Source of the DNA: Dehalococcoidales bacterium
Lineage (GTDB): Bacteria > Chloroflexota > Dehalococcoidia > Dehalococcoidales > CSSed11-197
NCBI GenBank assembly: GCA_028717385.1
Contig: JAQUNW010000010.1
Coordinates: 1 to 41,274, forward strand
DNA length: 41,274 nt
Direction: 5' to 3'
Positions 19,450 through 36,012 of the stretch are shown here, in pieces; the first letter of the stretch is position 1; the number at the start of each line of letters is the position of its first letter. Under the pieces are notes generated by a model. It was not told the origin of the DNA. It worked only from the letters and a program-made list of their open reading frames with translations, and did no database searches. A program made the position numbers and the translations under genes.

Positions 19450-19470
19450 GTTTTAAGTCTGGTGAAAAGC

Positions 19471-20088
19471 ATGATCGCAGTAATCGATTATGGGGCTGGC
19501 AATATCAAAAGCGTGCTAAACGCTATCAAGCACGTGGGCTTGGAGCCTTTGGTTACCAATAATCCTCAAGAAGTATTAACGGCAGAAAAAGTCGTTTTTC
19601 CCGGCGTTGGCGCTGCAGCCAGTACTATGGCAAGTTTGAGAGTATTAAAGCTGGACAAGGCGATTTATGAATATGTCTCATCCGGAAAGCCTTTCTTGGG
19701 AATATGTATTGGTATGCAGGTTCTATTTGATTACACGGAAGAAAACGGCGGTTGTAATTGTCTGGGTATTATCCCGGGCAGAGTGAAAAAGCTTCCCGCT
19801 GGCCAAAAGATACCGCATATAGGCTGGAATCAGGTCCATCAGGTAAAACCTCACCAGCTGTTTTCCGGCATAGAAGATAACGATAATTTCTATTTCGTTC
19901 ATAGTTATTATGCGCATCCTGGTGATGATTCGCTGGTGCTCGCCAGTACTTTTTATGGTATTGATTTTTGTTCAGCCATTGTCTATGGAAAGCTGGTAGC
20001 GACACAATTCCATCCGGAAAAAAGTGGAAAAAACGGCTTGAAAATATATGAAAATTTTTTGTTTGGTAGCGGAGGAATGAAATACTAG
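19471..20088 (+). CDS. hisH: imidazole glycerol phosphate synthase, glutaminase subunit
   Basis: This 205-residue class I glutamine amidotransferase makes ammonia from glutamine for HisF in histidine synthesis. The catalytic cysteine is in LGICIGMQ (Cys79), and the His and Glu of the triad are in FHPEKSG near residue 185. The N-terminus MIAVIDYGAGN is the standard HisH start, so ATG 19471 is chosen over the in-frame GTG 19462. Its partner hisF lies 5.7 kb downstream in the same apparent operon, separated by glutamate-synthase-like genes. Confidence 0.95.
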   Translation: MIAVIDYGAGNIKSVLNAIKHVGLEPLVTNNPQEVLTAEKVVFPGVGAAASTMASLRVLKLDKAIYEYVSSGKPFLGICIGMQVLFDYTEENGGCNCLGIIPGRVKKLPAGQKIPHIGWNQVHQVKPHQLFSGIEDNDNFYFVHSYYAHPGDDSLVLASTFYGIDFCSAIVYGKLVATQFHPEKSGKNGLKIYENFLFGSGGMKY

Positions 20089-20090
20089 CC

Positions 20091-20204
20091 GTGCCGATAC
20101 AAAATGATAACTCCCGGATTACTGTTGAAAACGAGCAAACAGTCGGCATCAAGGTTAAAGCAGTAGGATTAACACCGAAGCCGAAACCATCTGCAGGGGA
20201 GTAA
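20091..20204 (+). CDS. small 37-residue ORF between hisH and the glt genes
   Basis: A GTG-started ORF fills the gap exactly: 2 nt after the hisH stop and 2 nt before the next ATG. The 37-residue product begins VPIQNDNSRITVENEQ and ends in a proline-lysine run, TPKPKPSAGE. There are no cysteines and no membrane segment. GGAGGA at 20071-20076 lies 14 nt upstream of the GTG, farther than ideal. No family is recognised. The tight packing favours a real gene or a decayed domain, but chance cannot be excluded. Confidence 0.4.
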   Translation: MPIQNDNSRITVENEQTVGIKVKAVGLTPKPKPSAGE

Positions 20205-20206
20205 CT

Positions 20207-21619
20207 ATGCCTGAAAAGTATCATATAAATATAAACGAAACACCAGCCCGGTTTCCGCTGGTAAGCAAATACGCTATCGTAGAAACCAGGGAAAAATGCA
20301 CTGGTTCCTGTCGCAAATGCGTCAGAAAAAACTGCGCATTTGGGGTATTTAAACTCAATTCCCATAATATGCAAAAGGCGAAAGAGCGGCAATACCTGTA
20401 TGGCTGCGAGGGTTGTTTCAGGTGTGTACAGGAATGCCCTGGTGGTGTTTTTTCCCGTGTGAAAAATCCGGATTGGGATAATCTGGGTGGTGGTTACTGG
20501 ACTCCGGATATAATTCACCAGACTTGGAAGCAGGCTGAAAATGGCAGGGTTCCTGTTTCTGGAGCGGGGTATCGCGGTAAATTTGCTGCCTGTGGATTCG
20601 ATTCTATTTGGACTGATATGAGTGAAATTGTTCGTCCGACGCGGGACGGAATTCACGGCAGAGAGTACATAAACACCTCGGTTGATATTAACCGCAGGCC
20701 TCACCACTTGTCGTTTTCTCAGGATGGCAAGCTGGACAGGAGCTATACCACTGTGGTTGAAATTCCTATCCCTCTGTTATTTGAAGTTCCAAAATTTGGA
20801 ATTATCAATCGCAGAGTTCTAAATGCTATGGTTTCTGCAGCTTCTGAGTTGGAAACACTTATGTTTCTACGTCCGGAGGAATATAGTGATGACCTTGAGC
20901 CTTTAGCATCCAGTATTGTTCCACGCCTGAAGGCAAGCAATCAGGTTCAGTTTAACAACTTAATAAAAAAATGTCGGATAGTAGAAATTGACTACTGCGA
21001 AAATATTTTACAAATCATAATAGCGGCGAAAACCATCAATCCAGATGTGTTAATAAGTGTCGGCATTGAGCTTGATGGTAAAGCGGTTGAGCGTGCTATT
21101 GAAACGTCGGAGCTTGATGAAGTGGACTTGCTTCACTTCTATGCTGACGCTAACGGTAATGGGCTTGGCTCCAATCAGCCGCGGTTTTTGAGCTCCTTGA
21201 TTCAGGAAATGCATTCGGCGCTCGTCGAAAGAGGATTGCGTTTTCGTACCAACCTGGTTTTTTCCGGGGGAATTGCACTGGCGGAGCACCTTGCCAAGGC
21301 GATTATTTATGGAGCTGATGCGTTAGCGATTTCTACTCCGTTGTTGTTGGCACTTGAATGCCACATGTGCTATCGATGTCTCTCCGGAGAATCTTGCCCG
21401 GTATCCATGGAAGAAATCCCGGAAAACTGGGGCCGTCAGCGGATACTAAACCTGGCGGGGGCATGGCGTGACCAGCTTATAGAGGTGATGGGGGCAATGG
21501 GGATAAGAGAAGCGCGGCGTTTAAGGGGGGATATAGGGCGCTCAATGTGTTTTGAGAACCTTGAAAAAGAGTGTTTTGGGCCAATTTTTGGCAAGAGTGT
21601 GGCGAAAGGTTCGGTTTAA
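20207..21619 (+). CDS. divergent glutamate synthase domain 2 (GltB2-like) paralogue with ferredoxin-type N-terminus
   Basis: This 470-residue protein has an N-terminal cysteine-rich region, CTGSCRKCVRKNC and CEGCFRCVQECP (about 31-81), likely [4Fe-4S]-binding. A glutamate-synthase FMN-type barrel follows. The barrel is degenerate. The SFG motif, the KQGAKPG loop and the GGTGA motif of active GltS are missing. The last is replaced by ADANGNGLGSNQPR. The C-terminal cluster CHMCYRCLSGESCP is kept and has four cysteines rather than the usual three. It probably partners the intact paralogue next door as a structural or electron-carrying subunit, which is an inference. An independent enzymatic role is possible. 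Confidence 0.75.
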   Translation: MPEKYHININETPARFPLVSKYAIVETREKCTGSCRKCVRKNCAFGVFKLNSHNMQKAKERQYLYGCEGCFRCVQECPGGVFSRVKNPDWDNLGGGYWTPDIIHQTWKQAENGRVPVSGAGYRGKFAACGFDSIWTDMSEIVRPTRDGIHGREYINTSVDINRRPHHLSFSQDGKLDRSYTTVVEIPIPLLFEVPKFGIINRRVLNAMVSAASELETLMFLRPEEYSDDLEPLASSIVPRLKASNQVQFNNLIKKCRIVEIDYCENILQIIIAAKTINPDVLISVGIELDGKAVERAIETSELDEVDLLHFYADANGNGLGSNQPRFLSSLIQEMHSALVERGLRFRTNLVFSGGIALAEHLAKAIIYGADALAISTPLLLALECHMCYRCLSGESCPVSMEEIPENWGRQRILNLAGAWRDQLIEVMGAMGIREARRLRGDIGRSMCFENLEKECFGPIFGKSVAKGSV

Positions 21620-21620
21620 A

Positions 21621-23156
21621 ATGGAAACGAGAAAAGAAGTGGTAGAGTTTCCCCTGGCTAAACTGGCGCCTTCTCGTTACCATAATACAATCAGTCAATA
21701 CATTATCAAACGGAGCGCAAGCTGTAATGAATGTGGATTATGTGCAAGGCTTTGCCCTCAAGGTGTTCACTCTTCCGGCAATGTGTATTCTGGCGCCCTG
21801 AAACCGTATATGGATCGTTGTACAGGATTTGAATGTGCCGCAAATGAATACTATTGCATTGATCGTTGCCCGCAGAAGGCATTGTCAATACAGCTAAATC
21901 CATTGCTCGAAACACTGGGCGACTACCGCTGGACAGCAGAGATGCTGTTGGGGCACTGGGTTATGGCAGAAACTGGAGACTTGCCGGTCACAAAGCTTGA
22001 ATACAGCACGGGTAAATCCAATGGGGGATTTGACCGCATACGTTTTAAGACACCCAGGCAAAATGATTATCTGCACATTCCCGATAAAGAGATAGATACC
22101 AGCGTAAAGCTGAATCGCAGAAATGATGGGCGCCTGCCACTTTCGATAAACATTCCGGTTTACGGGGGTGGTATGTCATTTGGTTCAACGGCTCTTCCGG
22201 TGTTAATAGGGCGTGCGCGAGCTGCCAAAAAGCTGGGTACTCTTACCTGCACCGGTGAAGGGGGCTACCATGATAAAATTCTGCCCTATGCCGGTAATGT
22301 AATTACCCAGGTGGCTACCGGACTCTTCGGTGTCAGAGAAGAAACAATCAGACGTGCTCCAATGGTTGAGTTTAAATATGCCCAAGGAGCCAAGCCCGGT
22401 CTTGGCGGGCACTTATTAGGCGACAAGGTTACCGCTGAAGTGGCTGCAATACGTCAAACGGTAATCGGCAATGCACTCTTCTCTCCCTTTCCGTTCCATA
22501 GCGTTTATTCAGTAGAAGATCACAAGAAACAGGTGGACTGGGTAAAACAAGTAAATATTGAAGGACTGATATCCGTGAAAGTATCCACCCCTGTTGACTG
22601 CGATATGGTTGCAGTTGGCATCTATCATGCCGGAGCCCACGTGATTCATTTCGATGGCAGCTACGGTGGTACTGGCGCTGCACCGGATATAGCTAAAAAG
22701 AATATTGCCATGCCGATCGAATACGCCATTCCCAGGGTGCACCGATTTCTTGTATCCGAGGGCATTCGGGATCAGATAACTCTGATCGCGAGCGGGGGAA
22801 TACGCTCTGCCATGGATGTCGCTAAGGCGATTGCACTTGGCGCCGATGGTGTGGTTATCGGTACTGCGGAATTGGTTGCCGTGGAATGCGTGCGTTGCGG
22901 CCATTGCGAGAGTGGGCGGGGGTGCCCCAGAGGTATCGCCACTACCGATTCGGAACTTGGGCAGGTAATTAGCGAGGAATGGGCAGAGCGGCGCATCGTT
23001 AACATGTATTTAGCCTGGCGCAAGCAATGGTGTGAACTTTTACGACAATACCGAATGCGCAGCATAAAGGAGTTGGTCGGCCGCAGCGATCTGCTGGTGC
23101 ACCTGGATTATCTGGAAGAACAAGAAAGAAATAATTATCTATCTTACGGTGGCTAA
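21621..23156 (+). CDS. glutamate synthase domain 2 (FMN/Fe-S catalytic subunit, archaeal type)
   Basis: This protein has 511 residues from ATG 21621. An in-frame TTG at 21552 would overlap the previous gene. The N-terminus has ferredoxin-type motifs CNECGLCARLCP and later CIDRCP. The FMN barrel carries GGGMSFGSTALPV, QGAKPGLGG, FPFHSVYSVED, SYGGTGAAPDI and ASGGIRSAMDVAKAIALGAD. The cluster motif CVRCGHCESGRGCP has four cysteines, whereas the canonical GltS 3Fe-4S site has three. It catalyses reductive transfer of ammonia to 2-oxoglutarate, with the glutaminase in the next gene. No GltD-like NADPH subunit is nearby, so ferredoxin is the likely donor. Confidence 0.88.
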   Translation: METRKEVVEFPLAKLAPSRYHNTISQYIIKRSASCNECGLCARLCPQGVHSSGNVYSGALKPYMDRCTGFECAANEYYCIDRCPQKALSIQLNPLLETLGDYRWTAEMLLGHWVMAETGDLPVTKLEYSTGKSNGGFDRIRFKTPRQNDYLHIPDKEIDTSVKLNRRNDGRLPLSINIPVYGGGMSFGSTALPVLIGRARAAKKLGTLTCTGEGGYHDKILPYAGNVITQVATGLFGVREETIRRAPMVEFKYAQGAKPGLGGHLLGDKVTAEVAAIRQTVIGNALFSPFPFHSVYSVEDHKKQVDWVKQVNIEGLISVKVSTPVDCDMVAVGIYHAGAHVIHFDGSYGGTGAAPDIAKKNIAMPIEYAIPRVHRFLVSEGIRDQITLIASGGIRSAMDVAKAIALGADGVVIGTAELVAVECVRCGHCESGRGCPRGIATTDSELGQVISEEWAERRIVNMYLAWRKQWCELLRQYRMRSIKELVGRSDLLVHLDYLEEQERNNYLSYGG

Positions 23157-23158
23157 CT

Positions 23159-25807
23159 GTGAATCGAAAAGAATTGGTATATAGAATAATTGGATCACGC
23201 AGGAATCTTCCCAGCCCTGGCGGTTCAACATGCAAAGCTGCCGAAGAGGGTGGTTGTGGTGTAACCGGGTTCATTTCATCAGTACCAGTAAGGGGAAAAC
23301 ATATCATTACTCCGTCTGTGCAGATGCATAACCGGGGGAACGGCAAGGGTGGTGGCATTGCAGCTATCGGTCTTTCAGCCGAGGACATTGGTGTTTCTCA
23401 GTATACGCTTGAGACTTGCTACCTTTTGCAGATAGCCCTTCTTGATGAGAGTATCAGGGAGGAAGTCGAAAAAAAGTTTATTGATCCCTTTTTAGATATT
23501 TTCAGAGCTGAGCGTATTCCTACGCTGAAAGACTTCCGTGAAATTCCTGGCCTCAAATGCCGTCCGCCAGATGTATGGCGCTACCTTGTAAGAGTAAAAC
23601 CAGGAGCGCTGGAGCACTTTATAGTGCAAAACCAACTTCAAGCACTGGAAACCGGTAAAGCTGAAGATGAGTTTGTGTACCAGAATTCTTATCGTATCAA
23701 CCACTGTTTTTATTCTTCTGGCGGCCAGCAGCGTGCCTTTGTACTTTCTCATGGTCACAATCTGATGGTGCTAAAAGTAGTCGGATATGCTGAGCAGGTA
23801 GCTCAGTATTATTGTCTGAATGACTTTCGGGCTTATGGTTGGATAGCCCATCAGCGCTATCCAACCAGGGGGAAGATATGGCATCCGGGCGGAGCACATC
23901 CGTTTACCGGTTTGGATGAGGCGCTGGTGCATAACGGGGATTTTGCTAACTATTATTCAGTCAGTGAATATTTACATCAGCATAATATTTACCCCCAGTT
24001 TTTCACCGATACCGAAGTATCGGCTCTAATGTTTGATTTGCTGAACCGCACTTTCGAATACCCGCTTGAGTACATAATCGAAGCTATAGCCCCAACGGGT
24101 GAATATGACTTTAATCTTCTCCCGGTTGAAAAACAGGGCATATATCGGCAGATACAATCAGCCCATATTCATTCCAGCCCGGATGGTCCCTGGTTTTTTA
24201 TTATCGCCAGGAATGATACCCGGCAAAAAAAGTTGCAGCTTGTTGGGATTACTGATACGTCCATGCTGCGCCCACAGGTTTTTGCCTTGCAGGAAGGCGA
24301 CGTGCAGATTGGTCTTATAGGCTCTGAAAAACAGGCGATTGATGCAACTCTGGAGAGTATTGCAGCCGAAGATAAACGTTTTTGCCCGGTTGCAGATGAG
24401 TACTGGAACTGCCGGGGTGGTAGTGCAAGTGATGGCGGAGCGTTCATCTTTTCAATAGAAGATGACAGCACCGGGGGTAAAAGGCTTGTTTGTTCCAATA
24501 AATTTGGAGAAGCAGTAAAAACAGCTCCGGATCAATATCATTATCAAGGTAATATGGGCGGCACCAGCCTCCATGATGAAGAAGTTATTAACGAAGTTGA
24601 GAAATGCTTCATGGGTGGAGAGCGTGAGCAGCTCAAACTGTATTATCGTGAGCATCTGCCAGGCTGGAACTATGCATCTCTGATCGCTTTTTGCTCCAGC
24701 ATAGTTGAATGCTCAAAAAACGGTGATAGGCAAAAACAGTTAGCTATAGAAATCCTTAGCTGGCTAAATGATAAACCTTTAAGTACCGGCAACAAGAAGA
24801 GAAGCTCGGTTCTCCAGATAGTCAGAAATTATTTGGTAGCCGTATTTAATAATACACTGTTGGTTGGTAATCAGGGAAAGAGTCGCTACCGGTTGATAAA
24901 CTATGCCAAGCGCCAGACTCTTGCCAAGCCCAGCAATGAAAACCAGGTCTTGCTTCTGGATGCACAAGGTTTTCCTCCCGAAGGGGAAGAATGTGATGCT
25001 CGGCTATTGGCTGAAGCCAGTAGATTAGGCTGGAAAAACTTTATCTGCTTTAATTATTCCGGCCAAAGGTTTTGCGGTTGTGGTATATCAAATGGTTTGG
25101 TAAAGGCTAGAATCGATGTTTATGGCAGCCCGGGTGATTATCTTGCTTCTGGGATAAATGGAGTGCAAATATACGTACATAATGATGGCCAGGATCAAAT
25201 CGGGCAGATAATGATGAGTGGAAAACTGGTAGTGTATGGAGACGTAGGACAGACTTTTATGTATGGTGCCAAAGGCGGGGAGGCGTATGTAATGGGCAAT
25301 GCCGCCGGCAGGCCTCTGATTAATGCGGTCGGAAACCCCAGGGTGGTAATCAACGGCACCTGCCTTGATTACCTGGCAGAATCATTTATGGCTGGAAATC
25401 CACTTAAAGGAGGCGGTTTTGTAATTGTGAACGGAGTAGAATACAATGCCGATGGTCAGGTTCAAAGCCAGACCTCTCCGTATCCTGGCTCTAATCTTTT
25501 TTCGTTGGCTTCCGGTGGTGCTATATATATCAGGGATCCGCATCGAAAAGTTGTACCCGAACAGTTAAATGGGGGAGAGCTTGTGGAGCTTTCTTCTGAT
25601 GATTGGGAACTTATAAAACCTTATCTTGAGGAAAATGAAAAGCTGTTTGGTATTTCCGTTGAAAATGACCTGCTTTCTGTGAATGGCGAGAGACGTCAAT
25701 ATTACCAGGTATACCGCAAGGTTAAGGCCATTGAATTGGGCGTTCTTCACCGGGTTGAAATGGATCGGGAAGATAGTTATCAAGAAGAGATAAAACAATC
25801 ATGCTAA
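23159..25807 (+). CDS. glutamate synthase glutaminase (class II) fused to GXGXG domain
   Basis: The product has 882 residues. The N-terminal half is a class II glutamine amidotransferase. Cys33 in [10 protein letters not shown] would be the catalytic N-terminal nucleophile after propeptide cleavage. [19 protein letters not shown] and [10 protein letters not shown] match GltB domain 1. After a linker of about 250 residues comes the GXGXG beta-helix (about 650-790), with repeated glycines in [31 protein letters not shown] and [14 protein letters not shown], the equivalent of GltB domain 3. Together with the preceding gene it makes up the standard three GltB domains, but in the order 2 then 1+3. 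GTG start; its stop overlaps the hisF start. Confidence 0.88.
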
Positions 25808-26562
25808 GCAGGAGAATAATACCCTGTCTGGACGTGCAGGCTGGACGTGTTGTAAAAGGTACTAGTTTTTTAGGGTTGAGAGAAGCTGGAGATCCGGTAG
25901 AACTGGCCACCCGGTATTATCGGGAAGGCGCGGATGAGCTGGTTTTTCTGGACATTTCAGCAACTTCGGAAGGCCGTGATACCATGGAAGATGTAGTTGA
26001 AATGGTGGCCGAGAAAGTTTTTATACCGCTCACTGTTGGTGGAGGTATACGAAATATTTCCGATATTCGGCGTATGTTGGGTGCAGGAGCAGACAAAGTC
26101 TCGGTTAATTCGGCTGCAGTCAAACACCCCGAACTTATCAGCGAAGGAGCCGACAAGTTTGGAAGCCAGTGTATTGTGATTGCCATTGATGCACAGCGCC
26201 GGGAAGGTAAGGGTGGCTGGGAAGTGTATATAAACAGTGGTAGTGAACCCACTGGTATTGATGCGTTGGAATGGGCAGTCAAAGCTACTGAGCTGGGCGC
26301 CGGAGAAGTATTGCTTACCAGTATGGATACTGATGGCCATCGCACTGGATATGATATTGAGCTCACCCGGGCTGTTTCAGAAAGTGTAAGCGTTCCGGTC
26401 ATTGCCAGCGGGGGTGCCGGTTCCCCGGAAGACCTCTTTATGGCATTGAAAGAAGGGAAAGCAGATGCGGTATTGGCGGCCAGCATTTTCCATTATCGCC
26501 AGTTTTCGATTGCTGATGTAAAAGCTTACCTTTTTCATAAAGGTATACCGGTTAGGTTATAA
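25801..26562 (+). CDS. hisF: imidazole glycerol phosphate synthase, cyclase subunit
   Basis: This 253-residue TIM-barrel cyclase uses ammonia from HisH to make IGP and AICAR from PRFAR. Catalytic Asp11 (IIPCLDV) and Asp130 (VIAIDAQR) are both present, as are the phosphate-binding GGGI and ASGGAG loops. The sequence is canonical. Its ATG at 25801 lies within the end of the glutaminase gene (7-nt overlap), which joins it firmly to the glt operon. Confidence 0.97.
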
Positions 26563-33728: not shown

Positions 33729-34319
33729 ATGATAAACGCGGGTGATACAGCCTGGGTACTTATTTCAGCTGCTATGGTAATGTTTATGACCCCGGGCCTT
33801 GCTCTGTTTTATGGTGGTATGGTCAGGAGGAAAAATTTGCTCTCAACCATCATGATGAGCTTTGCATGCATTGGTCTTGTCACCGTACTATGGATGACGT
33901 ATGGTTACTCCATAGGATTTGCTCCCGGTATAGCCGGAGGTCTTGTCGGGAACCTGGAATACCTTGGGCTCAAGGGTGTAGGCCAGGAGCCTTTGGCAGT
34001 TTATGCTGCAACTGTTCCACACCTTGCCTTTATGACATTCCAGGGCATGTTTGCAGTAATAGCACTGGCTACCGGCATTTTTGCCAGCGCAGCGATAAAC
34101 CCGACTGGAGCAGACGGGCTAGTAAATGGCGGGGGGATGCAGGTAGTTATCCAGATGATCAGCGTTGTTGCCGTAGCTGCGTTTGCTTTCATTGGAAGTA
34201 TTGTGATTGGAAAAGTAGTTAATGCTACAGTTGGCTTAAGGGTAAAACCGGTAGAGGAGACTATAGGACTTGACCTTTCCCAGCATGCCGAAAGTGTTTA
34301 TGGAGGTAGCATGCGATGA
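33729..34319 (+). CDS. internally deleted AmtB-like ammonium transporter (196 residues)
   Basis: Full AmtB proteins have about 400 residues and 11 helices. This one keeps the N-terminal part through TFQGMFAVI (residues 1-111: helices 1, 2 and the start of 3). It then jumps directly to ALATGIFASAAINPTGADGL (112 onward), which matches the end of helix 10. Helix 11 and the C-terminal PII-binding tail (GLDLSQHAESVYGG) follow. Roughly 200 residues are missing, including both pore histidines. The frame is intact, the SD is strong and the stop overlaps glnB (ATGA). It is either a functional mini-protein, a recent in-frame deletion, or an assembly collapse. Ammonium transport by the canonical mechanism is not expected. 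Confidence 0.8.
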   Translation: MINAGDTAWVLISAAMVMFMTPGLALFYGGMVRRKNLLSTIMMSFACIGLVTVLWMTYGYSIGFAPGIAGGLVGNLEYLGLKGVGQEPLAVYAATVPHLAFMTFQGMFAVIALATGIFASAAINPTGADGLVNGGGMQVVIQMISVVAVAAFAFIGSIVIGKVVNATVGLRVKPVEETIGLDLSQHAESVYGGSMR

Positions 34320-34654
34320 AAAAGGTAGAAGCGATTATTCGTGAAGAAAGGTTAAAAGCGGTGATCGAAGGCCTGGAGGAAAACGGTTATTTTGGGCTTA
34401 CAGTAACAGAAGTTAGCGGCCGGGGACGCCAGAAAGGGCTGACCTTGCAGGGAAGATCTGCCCAGTACCAGGTTGACTTGATACCCAAGATTAAAATTGA
34501 GGTGGTAGTTATGGATGGAGATGTTCCCTTGATAGTCAATACGATATCCCGGATTGCTCGTACAGGAGACATCGGAGACGGTAAAATATTTATAATCCCA
34601 GTAGAAGATGCGATAAGGATCCGTACCGGAGAAGTTGGCGAAGACACACTTTAA
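34316..34654 (+). CDS. glnB: nitrogen regulatory protein PII
   Basis: This 112-residue PII protein binds ATP/ADP and 2-oxoglutarate and regulates AmtB and nitrogen enzymes. It has the GRGRQKG start of the T-loop, Tyr51 (the uridylylation position) retained, Gly46 where Tyr is common, and the C-terminal signatures RTGDIGDGKIFIIPVEDAIRIRTGE. Linkage to amtB and glnA is the GlnK arrangement. The ATG overlaps the amtB stop by 4 nt, so the two are translationally coupled even though amtB is shortened. Confidence 0.95.
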   Translation: MKKVEAIIREERLKAVIEGLEENGYFGLTVTEVSGRGRQKGLTLQGRSAQYQVDLIPKIKIEVVVMDGDVPLIVNTISRIARTGDIGDGKIFIIPVEDAIRIRTGEVGEDTL

Positions 34655-34674
34655 ATAAAATTAGGAGGAAAAAA

Positions 34675-36012
34675 TTGGCCGACAAAAGAGAAAGCAAAGA
34701 GTATGTATTAAAAATGGCAAAGGAGCATGATGTTAAGTTTATCAGGCTCTGGTTTACTGATGTACTTGGAATGTTGAAAAGTTTTGCCATAACGGTTGAA
34801 GAGCTTGAGACAGCGCTTGAGGAGGGGATGGGGTTTGATGGTTCGTCTATCGAAGGATTTGCCAGGATTGACGAAAGCGATATGATAGCCCTCCCGGACC
34901 CCGATACGTTCCGGATGCTGCCATGGCGGCCACGAGAGCATCAAGCAGTAGCGCGTATATTTTGTGATATCGTAAGACCGGAGGGAACACCTTTTGAAGG
35001 TGATCCCAGGTATGTACTAAAAAGGATCTTGAAACGAGCTGCTGATATGGGATACACGTTCTATGTAGGTCCTGAATTGGAGTATTTTTACTTCAAGGAT
35101 AATAAAAGTACCGAGGTTCTGGATGCTGGTGGTTACTTCGATATGATACCGCTGGATATGGCTACCGATCTTAGGCGGGAATCAGTCCTATCTCTTGAGA
35201 AAATGGGGATAGCAGTAGAATATTCTCACCATGAAGTGGCGCCTTCACAGCATGAAATTGACGTGCGTTATACCGATGCCCTTACTATGGCAGATAACGT
35301 AATGACCTATCGTTTGGTAGTAAAGCAGATTGCCCTGAACGCGGGTGTTTATGCAACTTTTATGCCTAAACCGCTTTTTGGGGAAAATGGTAGCGGTATG
35401 CATGTTCACCAGTCTCTGTTTAAAGGTGATAGTAACGCGTTTTTTGACAGAAGTGACAGCTATAACCTTTCGCAGACTGCAAAATACTATATTGCCGGGC
35501 TTTTAAAACATGCACCCGAGTTTACCTCAATAACCAACCAGTGGATTAATTCATATAAAAGACTGGTACCAGGTTATGAGGCGCCTGTATATCTTTCTTG
35601 GGCAAGGCGCAACCGTTCGGATATGATTCGAGTACCGGAATACAAGCCTGGCAGAGAAAAAGCCACACGGGCGGAACTGCGCAGTCCTGACGCGGCATGT
35701 AACCCTTACCTTGCATTTGCAGTCATGCTGGCTGCGGGGTTGGAGGGGATTGAAAAGAAATATGAACTACCGGCACCAATCGAAAGTAATGTTTTTGATA
35801 TGACTGATGCAGAAAGAACAGAAAGGGGCATCGGCACTTTACCTTCCAGCCTCAGCGAAGCTGTTAAGTTAACTGAAAAAAGCCAACTCGTGCGTGATAC
35901 TCTGGGTGAACATTGCTTTAATGCATTTTTAGAGAATAAAAAACTTGAGTGGGATAAGTACCGCATACAGGTTACCGAATATGAGCTAAAGCGTTACCTT
36001 CCTATACTATAA
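34675..36012 (+). CDS. glnA: glutamine synthetase type I (alpha class)
   Basis: This 445-residue ATP-dependent enzyme makes glutamine from glutamate and ammonia. Visible motifs are GFDGSSIEGFA (Asp-50 loop), GPELEYFYF, NGSGMHVHQS, and NRSDMIRVPEY/KATRAELRSPDAACNPYLAF. The C-terminal region reads KYELPAPIESNVFDMTDAER like the Bacillus GSI-alpha class. It lacks the NLYDLPPE adenylylation tyrosine, so control by adenylylation is not expected. The TTG start at 34675 follows TAGGAGG. It is coupled with glnB (20 nt). Confidence 0.97.
   Translation: MADKRESKEYVLKMAKEHDVKFIRLWFTDVLGMLKSFAITVEELETALEEGMGFDGSSIEGFARIDESDMIALPDPDTFRMLPWRPREHQAVARIFCDIVRPEGTPFEGDPRYVLKRILKRAADMGYTFYVGPELEYFYFKDNKSTEVLDAGGYFDMIPLDMATDLRRESVLSLEKMGIAVEYSHHEVAPSQHEIDVRYTDALTMADNVMTYRLVVKQIALNAGVYATFMPKPLFGENGSGMHVHQSLFKGDSNAFFDRSDSYNLSQTAKYYIAGLLKHAPEFTSITNQWINSYKRLVPGYEAPVYLSWARRNRSDMIRVPEYKPGREKATRAELRSPDAACNPYLAFAVMLAAGLEGIEKKYELPAPIESNVFDMTDAERTERGIGTLPSSLSEAVKLTEKSQLVRDTLGEHCFNAFLENKKLEWDKYRIQVTEYELKRYLPIL

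Follow-up and report, generated by a model that had tools for sequence, protein, structure and literature searches.

The window, by which is meant the whole 41,274-nt stretch of DNA that was analysed, comes from a Dehalococcoidales bacterium (CSSed11-197; assembly GCA_028717385.1, contig JAQUNW010000010.1), the genome being a MAG. Between hisH and hisF it carries two tandem paralogues of the glutamate synthase protein GltB2, followed by a gene for a fused glutaminase/GXGXG protein. The product of 20207-21619, which has diverged from the catalytic GltB2 next to it, its paralogue, is here named GltB2p. The features of the locus are as follows:

19462-20088, + strand: hisH, left border of the operon (TIGR01855, 234 bits)
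20118-20204, + strand: metF scar, about 29 C-terminal codons (ITVENEQTVGIKVKAVGLTPKPKPSAGE and stop), found by local match to the MetF C-terminus of congener L022
20207-21619, + strand: GltB2p, putative non-catalytic GltB2 paralogue, 470 aa (Pfam, homologue alignment, AlphaFold2 model)
20297-20437, + strand: ferredoxin-like domain of GltB2p with two CX2-3CX2CX3-4C sets (C31-C43, C67-C77), invariant in 57 homologues
20552-20671, + strand: family-specific block of GltB2p, residues 116-155 (PVSGAGYRG..GF..WTDMSEIVRPTRDGIHGREYI; homologue alignment)
21359-21397, + strand: C-terminal cluster motif of GltB2p, CX2CX2CX5C (C385-C397; homologue alignment)
21621-23156, + strand: catalytic GltB2, 511 aa, with ferredoxin domain, FMN/2-oxoglutarate barrel and C-terminal cluster (PF01645, 300 bits)
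22170-22703, + strand: FMN/2-oxoglutarate site residues of GltB2 (GMSFGS, TGEGG, QGAKPG, K320, GGTGA, KKNIAMP), absent from GltB2p
23159-25807, + strand: fused class-II glutaminase (Cys33 after a propeptide-like stretch) and GXGXG protein, 882 aa (PF01493, PF13522)
25801-26562, + strand: hisF, right border, overlapping the preceding stop by 7 nt (TIGR00735, 380 bits)
33729-36012, + strand: amt (internally deleted), P-II and glutamine synthetase, nitrogen-assimilation genes about 7 kb downstream of the operon

Both paralogue ORFs lie at the coordinates given in the original prediction. The GltB2 start is placed at the ATG at 21621; the start given by the ORF finder is a TTG further upstream, at 21552. 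The three genes from 20207 to 25807 and hisF nearly touch or overlap each other, and they therefore look like one transcription unit.

GltB2p and GltB2 of the window are paralogues that share 27% identity over 506 columns (E 2e-35). The synthase domain PF01645 is recognized in GltB2p with only 43 bits over 70 C-terminal residues, as against 300 bits over 314 residues (E 2e-89) in GltB2, which also matches solved GltS chains at E 1e-49 to 1e-45, with 311 residues aligned to 2vdc. The motifs GGMSFGS, KYAQGAKPG and DGSYGGTGAAP are present in the window's GltB2 and missing from its GltB2p. The original prediction, which had the SFG, KQGAKPG and GGTGA motifs gone from the first paralogue and kept in the second, was thus accurate apart from the spelling of the second motif, and the loss extends across the family. 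When 57 GltB2p homologues were compared with 38 paired GltB2 proteins, GltB2 positions 258-301, a catalytic stretch of about 45 residues, were deleted in 100% of the GltB2p set, and GMSFGS, TGEGG, K320, GGTGAAP and the KKNIAMP loop were lost throughout. At the FMN-phosphate strand-end IGT, after strand 8, the glycine is replaced by Asp in 82% of the 57, and the window reads IST. Only the SGG and GAD turns, K364, H336 and R345 are kept from the GltB2 site.

Twelve cysteines (31/35/38/43, 67/70/73/77 and 385/388/391/397) are invariant in the same 57 proteins, which bears out the claim that the first paralogue keeps both its ferredoxin-like and its C-terminal cysteines. Most of the private block PVSGAGYRG..GF..WTDMSEIVRPTRDGIHGREYI, seen only in GltB2p, is likewise invariant. 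Catalytic GltB2 keeps a two-cluster ferredoxin domain of its own with both cysteine sets. Two Dehalococcoidia GltB2p proteins outside the 57-protein set (L029:9117-10514 and L030:5895-7289) are without the C-terminal cluster cysteines and have a GlcD-like FAD/Fe-S dehydrogenase gene upstream, not MvhD.

The AlphaFold2 model of GltB2p adopts a GltS-type barrel with core pLDDT above 90, and its best solved match is the glutamate synthase chain 7mfm_G (Z 25.0, rmsd 3.6 A, 319 residues). Residues 117-150 of the private block are disordered in the isolated model (pLDDT below 50), and the block stays below 50 in the model of a natural GltB2p-GltB2 fusion, which is too weak (mean pLDDT 72.4, pTM 0.59) to position the two halves.

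A profile built from ten relatives and searched against GTDB species genomes recovered at least 558 GltB2p-encoding loci. Linkage was counted in the best 80 of these, taking the loci with enough flanking room; because these 80 are the most similar to the window, the counts are valid for the window-like part of the family. The best 80 are mostly from Desulfobacterota, together with Phycisphaerae, one Nitrospiria, Poribacteria, Latescibacterota and a few Dehalococcoidia, and GltB2p is rare in Chloroflexota (9/400 genomes). One carrier available in culture is Desulfospira joergensenii DSM 10085 (L066). GltB2 lies directly 3′ of GltB2p in every locus with room (74/74 among the best 80), and the GATase/GXGXG protein comes next in 56 of 60. 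Single-chain GltB2p-GltB2 fusions occur at three of the best 80 loci (L101, L115 and L117) and in another Chloroflexota genome (L140), and many of the separate pairs share a reading frame, with just a stop and a few nucleotides between them; in alignment rows of such pairs the in-frame stop was read as Gln. Phylogeny, proposed as a check on the original prediction, resolved GltB2p, paired GltB2 and solo GltB2 as monophyletic groups split by strongly supported branches, so that one old GltB2 duplication is the simplest origin of the pair. Both the pairing of GltB2p with GltB2 and its presumed non-catalytic status are well supported by these comparisons. A 337-aa truncated GltB2p (L141:5908-6921, genome G369) leads straight into a GATase/GXGXG gene, with GltB2 missing between them; in its sibling genome (L138) the three genes are all present.

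The usual operon order is MvhD-MetV-MetF-GltB2p-GltB2-GATase/GXGXG. Among the best 80 of the at least 558 loci, a protein of the MvhD (FlpD) family is encoded within 3 kb upstream in 59/59 loci with room, and MetF and MetV are found upstream in 48 and 47 of the 59, respectively. Solved relatives of these MvhD proteins are MvhD subunits of hydrogenase complexes. Two more distant Chloroflexota loci (L138 and L140) carry neither MvhD nor MetVF, and in three Dehalococcoidia loci (L029, L030 and L143) a GlcD-like FAD/Fe-S gene takes the place of MvhD. The GltB2p-GltB2 pair is kept in the absence of MetF in the window and at L106, L108, L110, L120, L138 and L140. Three Desulfobacterota loci (L104, L105 and L107) read MvhD-MetV-GltB2p-GltB2, without MetF; the first two, which have room, also lack a nearby GATase/GXGXG protein, and in the L104 genome MetF is present at another place.

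Genes around GltB2p loci include those for glutamine synthetase, carbamoyl-phosphate synthase, NrpR, NAD synthase, CTP synthase and hisF, all of which either serve nitrogen assimilation or use glutamine. In 46 fused GATase/GXGXG proteins, that of the window among them, the glutaminase residues C33, R233, HNGD and TDTE are invariant, and the GXGXG domain of the window's protein scores 47.9 bits against PF01493. Because of these neighbours and the intact glutaminase/GXGXG protein, the three-gene unit is taken to be a glutamate synthase. It is the sole glutamate synthase found in the window genome, which also has one gene of the glutamate dehydrogenase family and a glutamine synthetase. A GltD gene was not adjacent in the window or among the neighbour genes of the sampled GltB2p loci. 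The original proposal that GltB2p acts in place of GltD lacks specificity, since split archaeal-type enzymes of sister lineages are, in the regions seen, likewise without an adjacent GltD-like pair and have a different pyridine-nucleotide oxidoreductase instead.

The NADPH-dependent GltBD of Azospirillum brasilense (1ea0, 2vdc, 6s6s) has the same glutaminase, FMN/2-oxoglutarate barrel, Fe-S and GXGXG domains, and in the NADPH enzyme electrons pass from FAD to FMN by two [4Fe-4S] clusters and one [3Fe-4S] cluster (PMC8097209). The window-type enzyme differs in being split over three polypeptides, in that no GltD was seen next to it, in having an extra, apparently non-catalytic GltB2 paralogue and in its four-cysteine C-terminal cluster motif, which has three cysteines in GltBD. 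The split archaeal-type enzyme of sister Dehalococcoidales (hisH-PyrRedox-GATase-hisF-GltB2-GXGXG) shares the hisH/hisF locus and a ferredoxin-domain GltB2, but it has a single catalytic GltB2 (about 34% identical), separate GATase and GXGXG proteins and no GltB2p. A swapped electron input has been proposed for the F420-dependent glutamate synthase FGltS of methanogens (PMC3448663), where the input subunit is a homologue of FrhB/FdhB and not a GltB2 paralogue. Acetogens have four types of MetVF reductase, one of which works with HdrABC and MvhD, and there MvhD pulled down HdrA, HdrB and MetF (PMC9430772). Most GltB2p carriers likewise have MvhD, MetV and MetF together, but GltB2p-GltB2-GATase/GXGXG stands where HdrABC would be, and the window lacks MvhD-MetVF; HdrABC was absent among the sampled GltB2p-locus neighbours scanned with Pfam. 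A search of mainly open-access literature found no glutamate synthase with a pseudo-GltB2 and no linkage of one to MvhD-MetVF.

In the congeners G001, G003 and G004, MetF, MetV-MetF or MvhD-MetV-MetF lies between hisH and GltB2p. Here the window has just 118 nt, whose in-frame translation matches the MetF end (ITVENEQTVGIKVKAVGLTP vs MAIENEQAVGRLVEAAGLMP) and stops 2 nt before the GltB2p start. The scar has a local score of 55 against the MetF C-terminus of L022, a value reached by 0 of 2000 shuffles (maximum 44). Neither an FlpD protein nor a stand-alone MetV occurs in the window genome, which also lacks a second metF of the operon type; its sole MetF-type protein is an unrelated 541-aa MetF/MetV-C fusion. 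Judged from these sequences, the window lineage is one that deleted MvhD-MetV-MetF and yet holds GltB2p under purifying selection (dN/dS about 0.10 against a congener, with dS saturated). An assembly error behind the missing genes is less likely, because no such genes occur elsewhere in the genome and the scar has diverged, but it stays a candidate since the MAG also shows a deleted amt. Compared with congener L031 (8430-9659), that gene (33729-34319) lacks about 212 internal residues, in frame; the absent segment was not found anywhere else in the window genome, and either the amt gene is truly broken or the gap arose in assembly. Changes at conserved positions of the window's GltB2p are concentrated in the ferredoxin domain (13/45, against 15/126 elsewhere; Fisher p 0.017 in a test chosen post hoc), and the same test in congeners gives p above 0.39. 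These changes, seen after the loss of MvhD, suggest, within the limits of a post hoc test, that MvhD may dock on the ferredoxin domain of GltB2p.

The reading that we favour, with moderate confidence and on the strength of comparative sequence evidence, is that a heteromeric glutamate synthase includes GltB2p as an obligate Fe-S subunit, which is itself non-catalytic and most likely brings in electrons. Glutamine would be hydrolysed at Cys33 of the fused glutaminase, the FMN/2-oxoglutarate barrel of GltB2 would receive the ammonia, and electrons would reach the FMN of GltB2 via Fe-S clusters. GltB2p would have arisen by one old duplication of GltB2, losing the FMN and 2-oxoglutarate sites and keeping three four-cysteine cluster sites. 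It would most likely take electrons from a donor that varies and hand them to GltB2; most bacteria would use MvhD, a few Dehalococcoidia a GlcD-type FAD/Fe-S dehydrogenase, and the window species probably free ferredoxin. The original prediction, in which a heteromeric glutamate synthase includes a pseudo-enzyme, is well supported by the constant adjacency (74/74), the four fusions, monophyly, the dead site, the retained cysteines and the nitrogen context, from which we infer a physical GltB2p-GltB2 complex. The further proposal that the first paralogue is the point of electron entry fits the 12 invariant cysteines and the 59/59 linkage to MvhD, and it is weakened by the ferredoxin domain of GltB2 itself and by the MvhD-less window, L138 and L140; the direction of electron flow and the identity of the donors are likewise inferred. 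The same MvhD-less loci indicate that GltB2p is not just an adapter for MvhD.

It is possible, if unlikely, that the main role of GltB2p is that of a structural or regulatory scaffold, which stands in for one member of a former GltB2 dimer and has clusters that are structural, while electrons enter through the ferredoxin domain of GltB2. The retention of both ferredoxin cysteine sets in GltB2, the L029 and L030 proteins that do without the C-terminal cysteines and the persistence of GltB2p where MvhD is absent (the window, L138 and L140) would all suit such a role. Yet 12 cysteines are invariant in 57 widely divergent GltB2p proteins although the flavin site is gone, and MvhD is a constant neighbour in 59/59 loci among the best 80 of at least 558, both of which speak against it. 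The nearly unchanged block 116-155, rich in charged residues, and the partly retained phosphate-binding loops could instead mean that GltB2p is a neofunctionalised enzyme in which the block, with SGG, K364 and GAD, forms a new active or ligand site. We consider this improbable: the flavin-ring and substrate-side motifs of GltB2 are all gone, the glycine after strand 8 is mostly Asp, the isolated model shows the block as disordered, which would also fit a partner interface, and within the best 80 of at least 558 loci all GltB2p copies with room are tied to GltB2.

Given the frequency of MetF and MetV directly upstream (48/59 and 47/59 within the best 80 of at least 558), the core unit might be a methylene-THF reductase, with GltB2p serving MvhD-MetVF and not glutamate synthase. 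This is very hard to reconcile with the seven loci named above that keep GltB2p-GltB2 without MetF, with the window's GltB2p having outlived the loss of MvhD-MetVF at a dN/dS of about 0.1, or with the finding that no GltB2p-MetF fusion was seen; GltB2p as a part of the MetVF enzyme itself is rejected because it persists without MetVF. The loss of catalytic motifs could also mark a functionless, decaying duplicate, a reading of negligible probability given at least 558 encoding loci over several phyla, low dN/dS, the invariant block and cysteines, and the fusions; local decay is rejected because GltB2p is conserved family-wide. The favoured Fe-S subunit of glutamate synthase might, in most carriers, be joined with MvhD and MetVF in one supramolecular complex coupling methylene-/methyl-tetrahydrofolate redox to glutamate synthesis by way of a pseudo-enzyme Fe-S hub, a proposal that we put forward only tentatively and regard as doubtful.

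Glutamate synthase is a central point at which nitrogen enters biomass; in many strict anaerobes its electron donor is unclear. The operon described here, widespread in sulfate reducers and their relatives, combines a dead paralogue with intact Fe-S wiring and a tie to MvhD and often to MetVF, and it points to a way of powering nitrogen assimilation that appears undescribed. It yields testable predictions on how anaerobes power glutamate synthesis and on whether this is coupled to one-carbon metabolism. The supramolecular complex, if true, would add a MetVF reductase type to the four of acetogens and would tie one-carbon metabolism directly to nitrogen metabolism. The window lineage, which apparently dropped MvhD-MetVF and retained the dead twin, provides a natural experiment.

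In most Dehalococcoidales the place between hisH and hisF holds a split archaeal-type glutamate synthase with a solo GltB2. This also holds for G002, which belongs to the window's own genus. The window operon therefore seems to have displaced the resident enzyme, probably through transfer. One genus thus has two types of glutamate synthase at the same hisH-hisF place, one at L038 (G002) and the other at 19462-26562 of the window.
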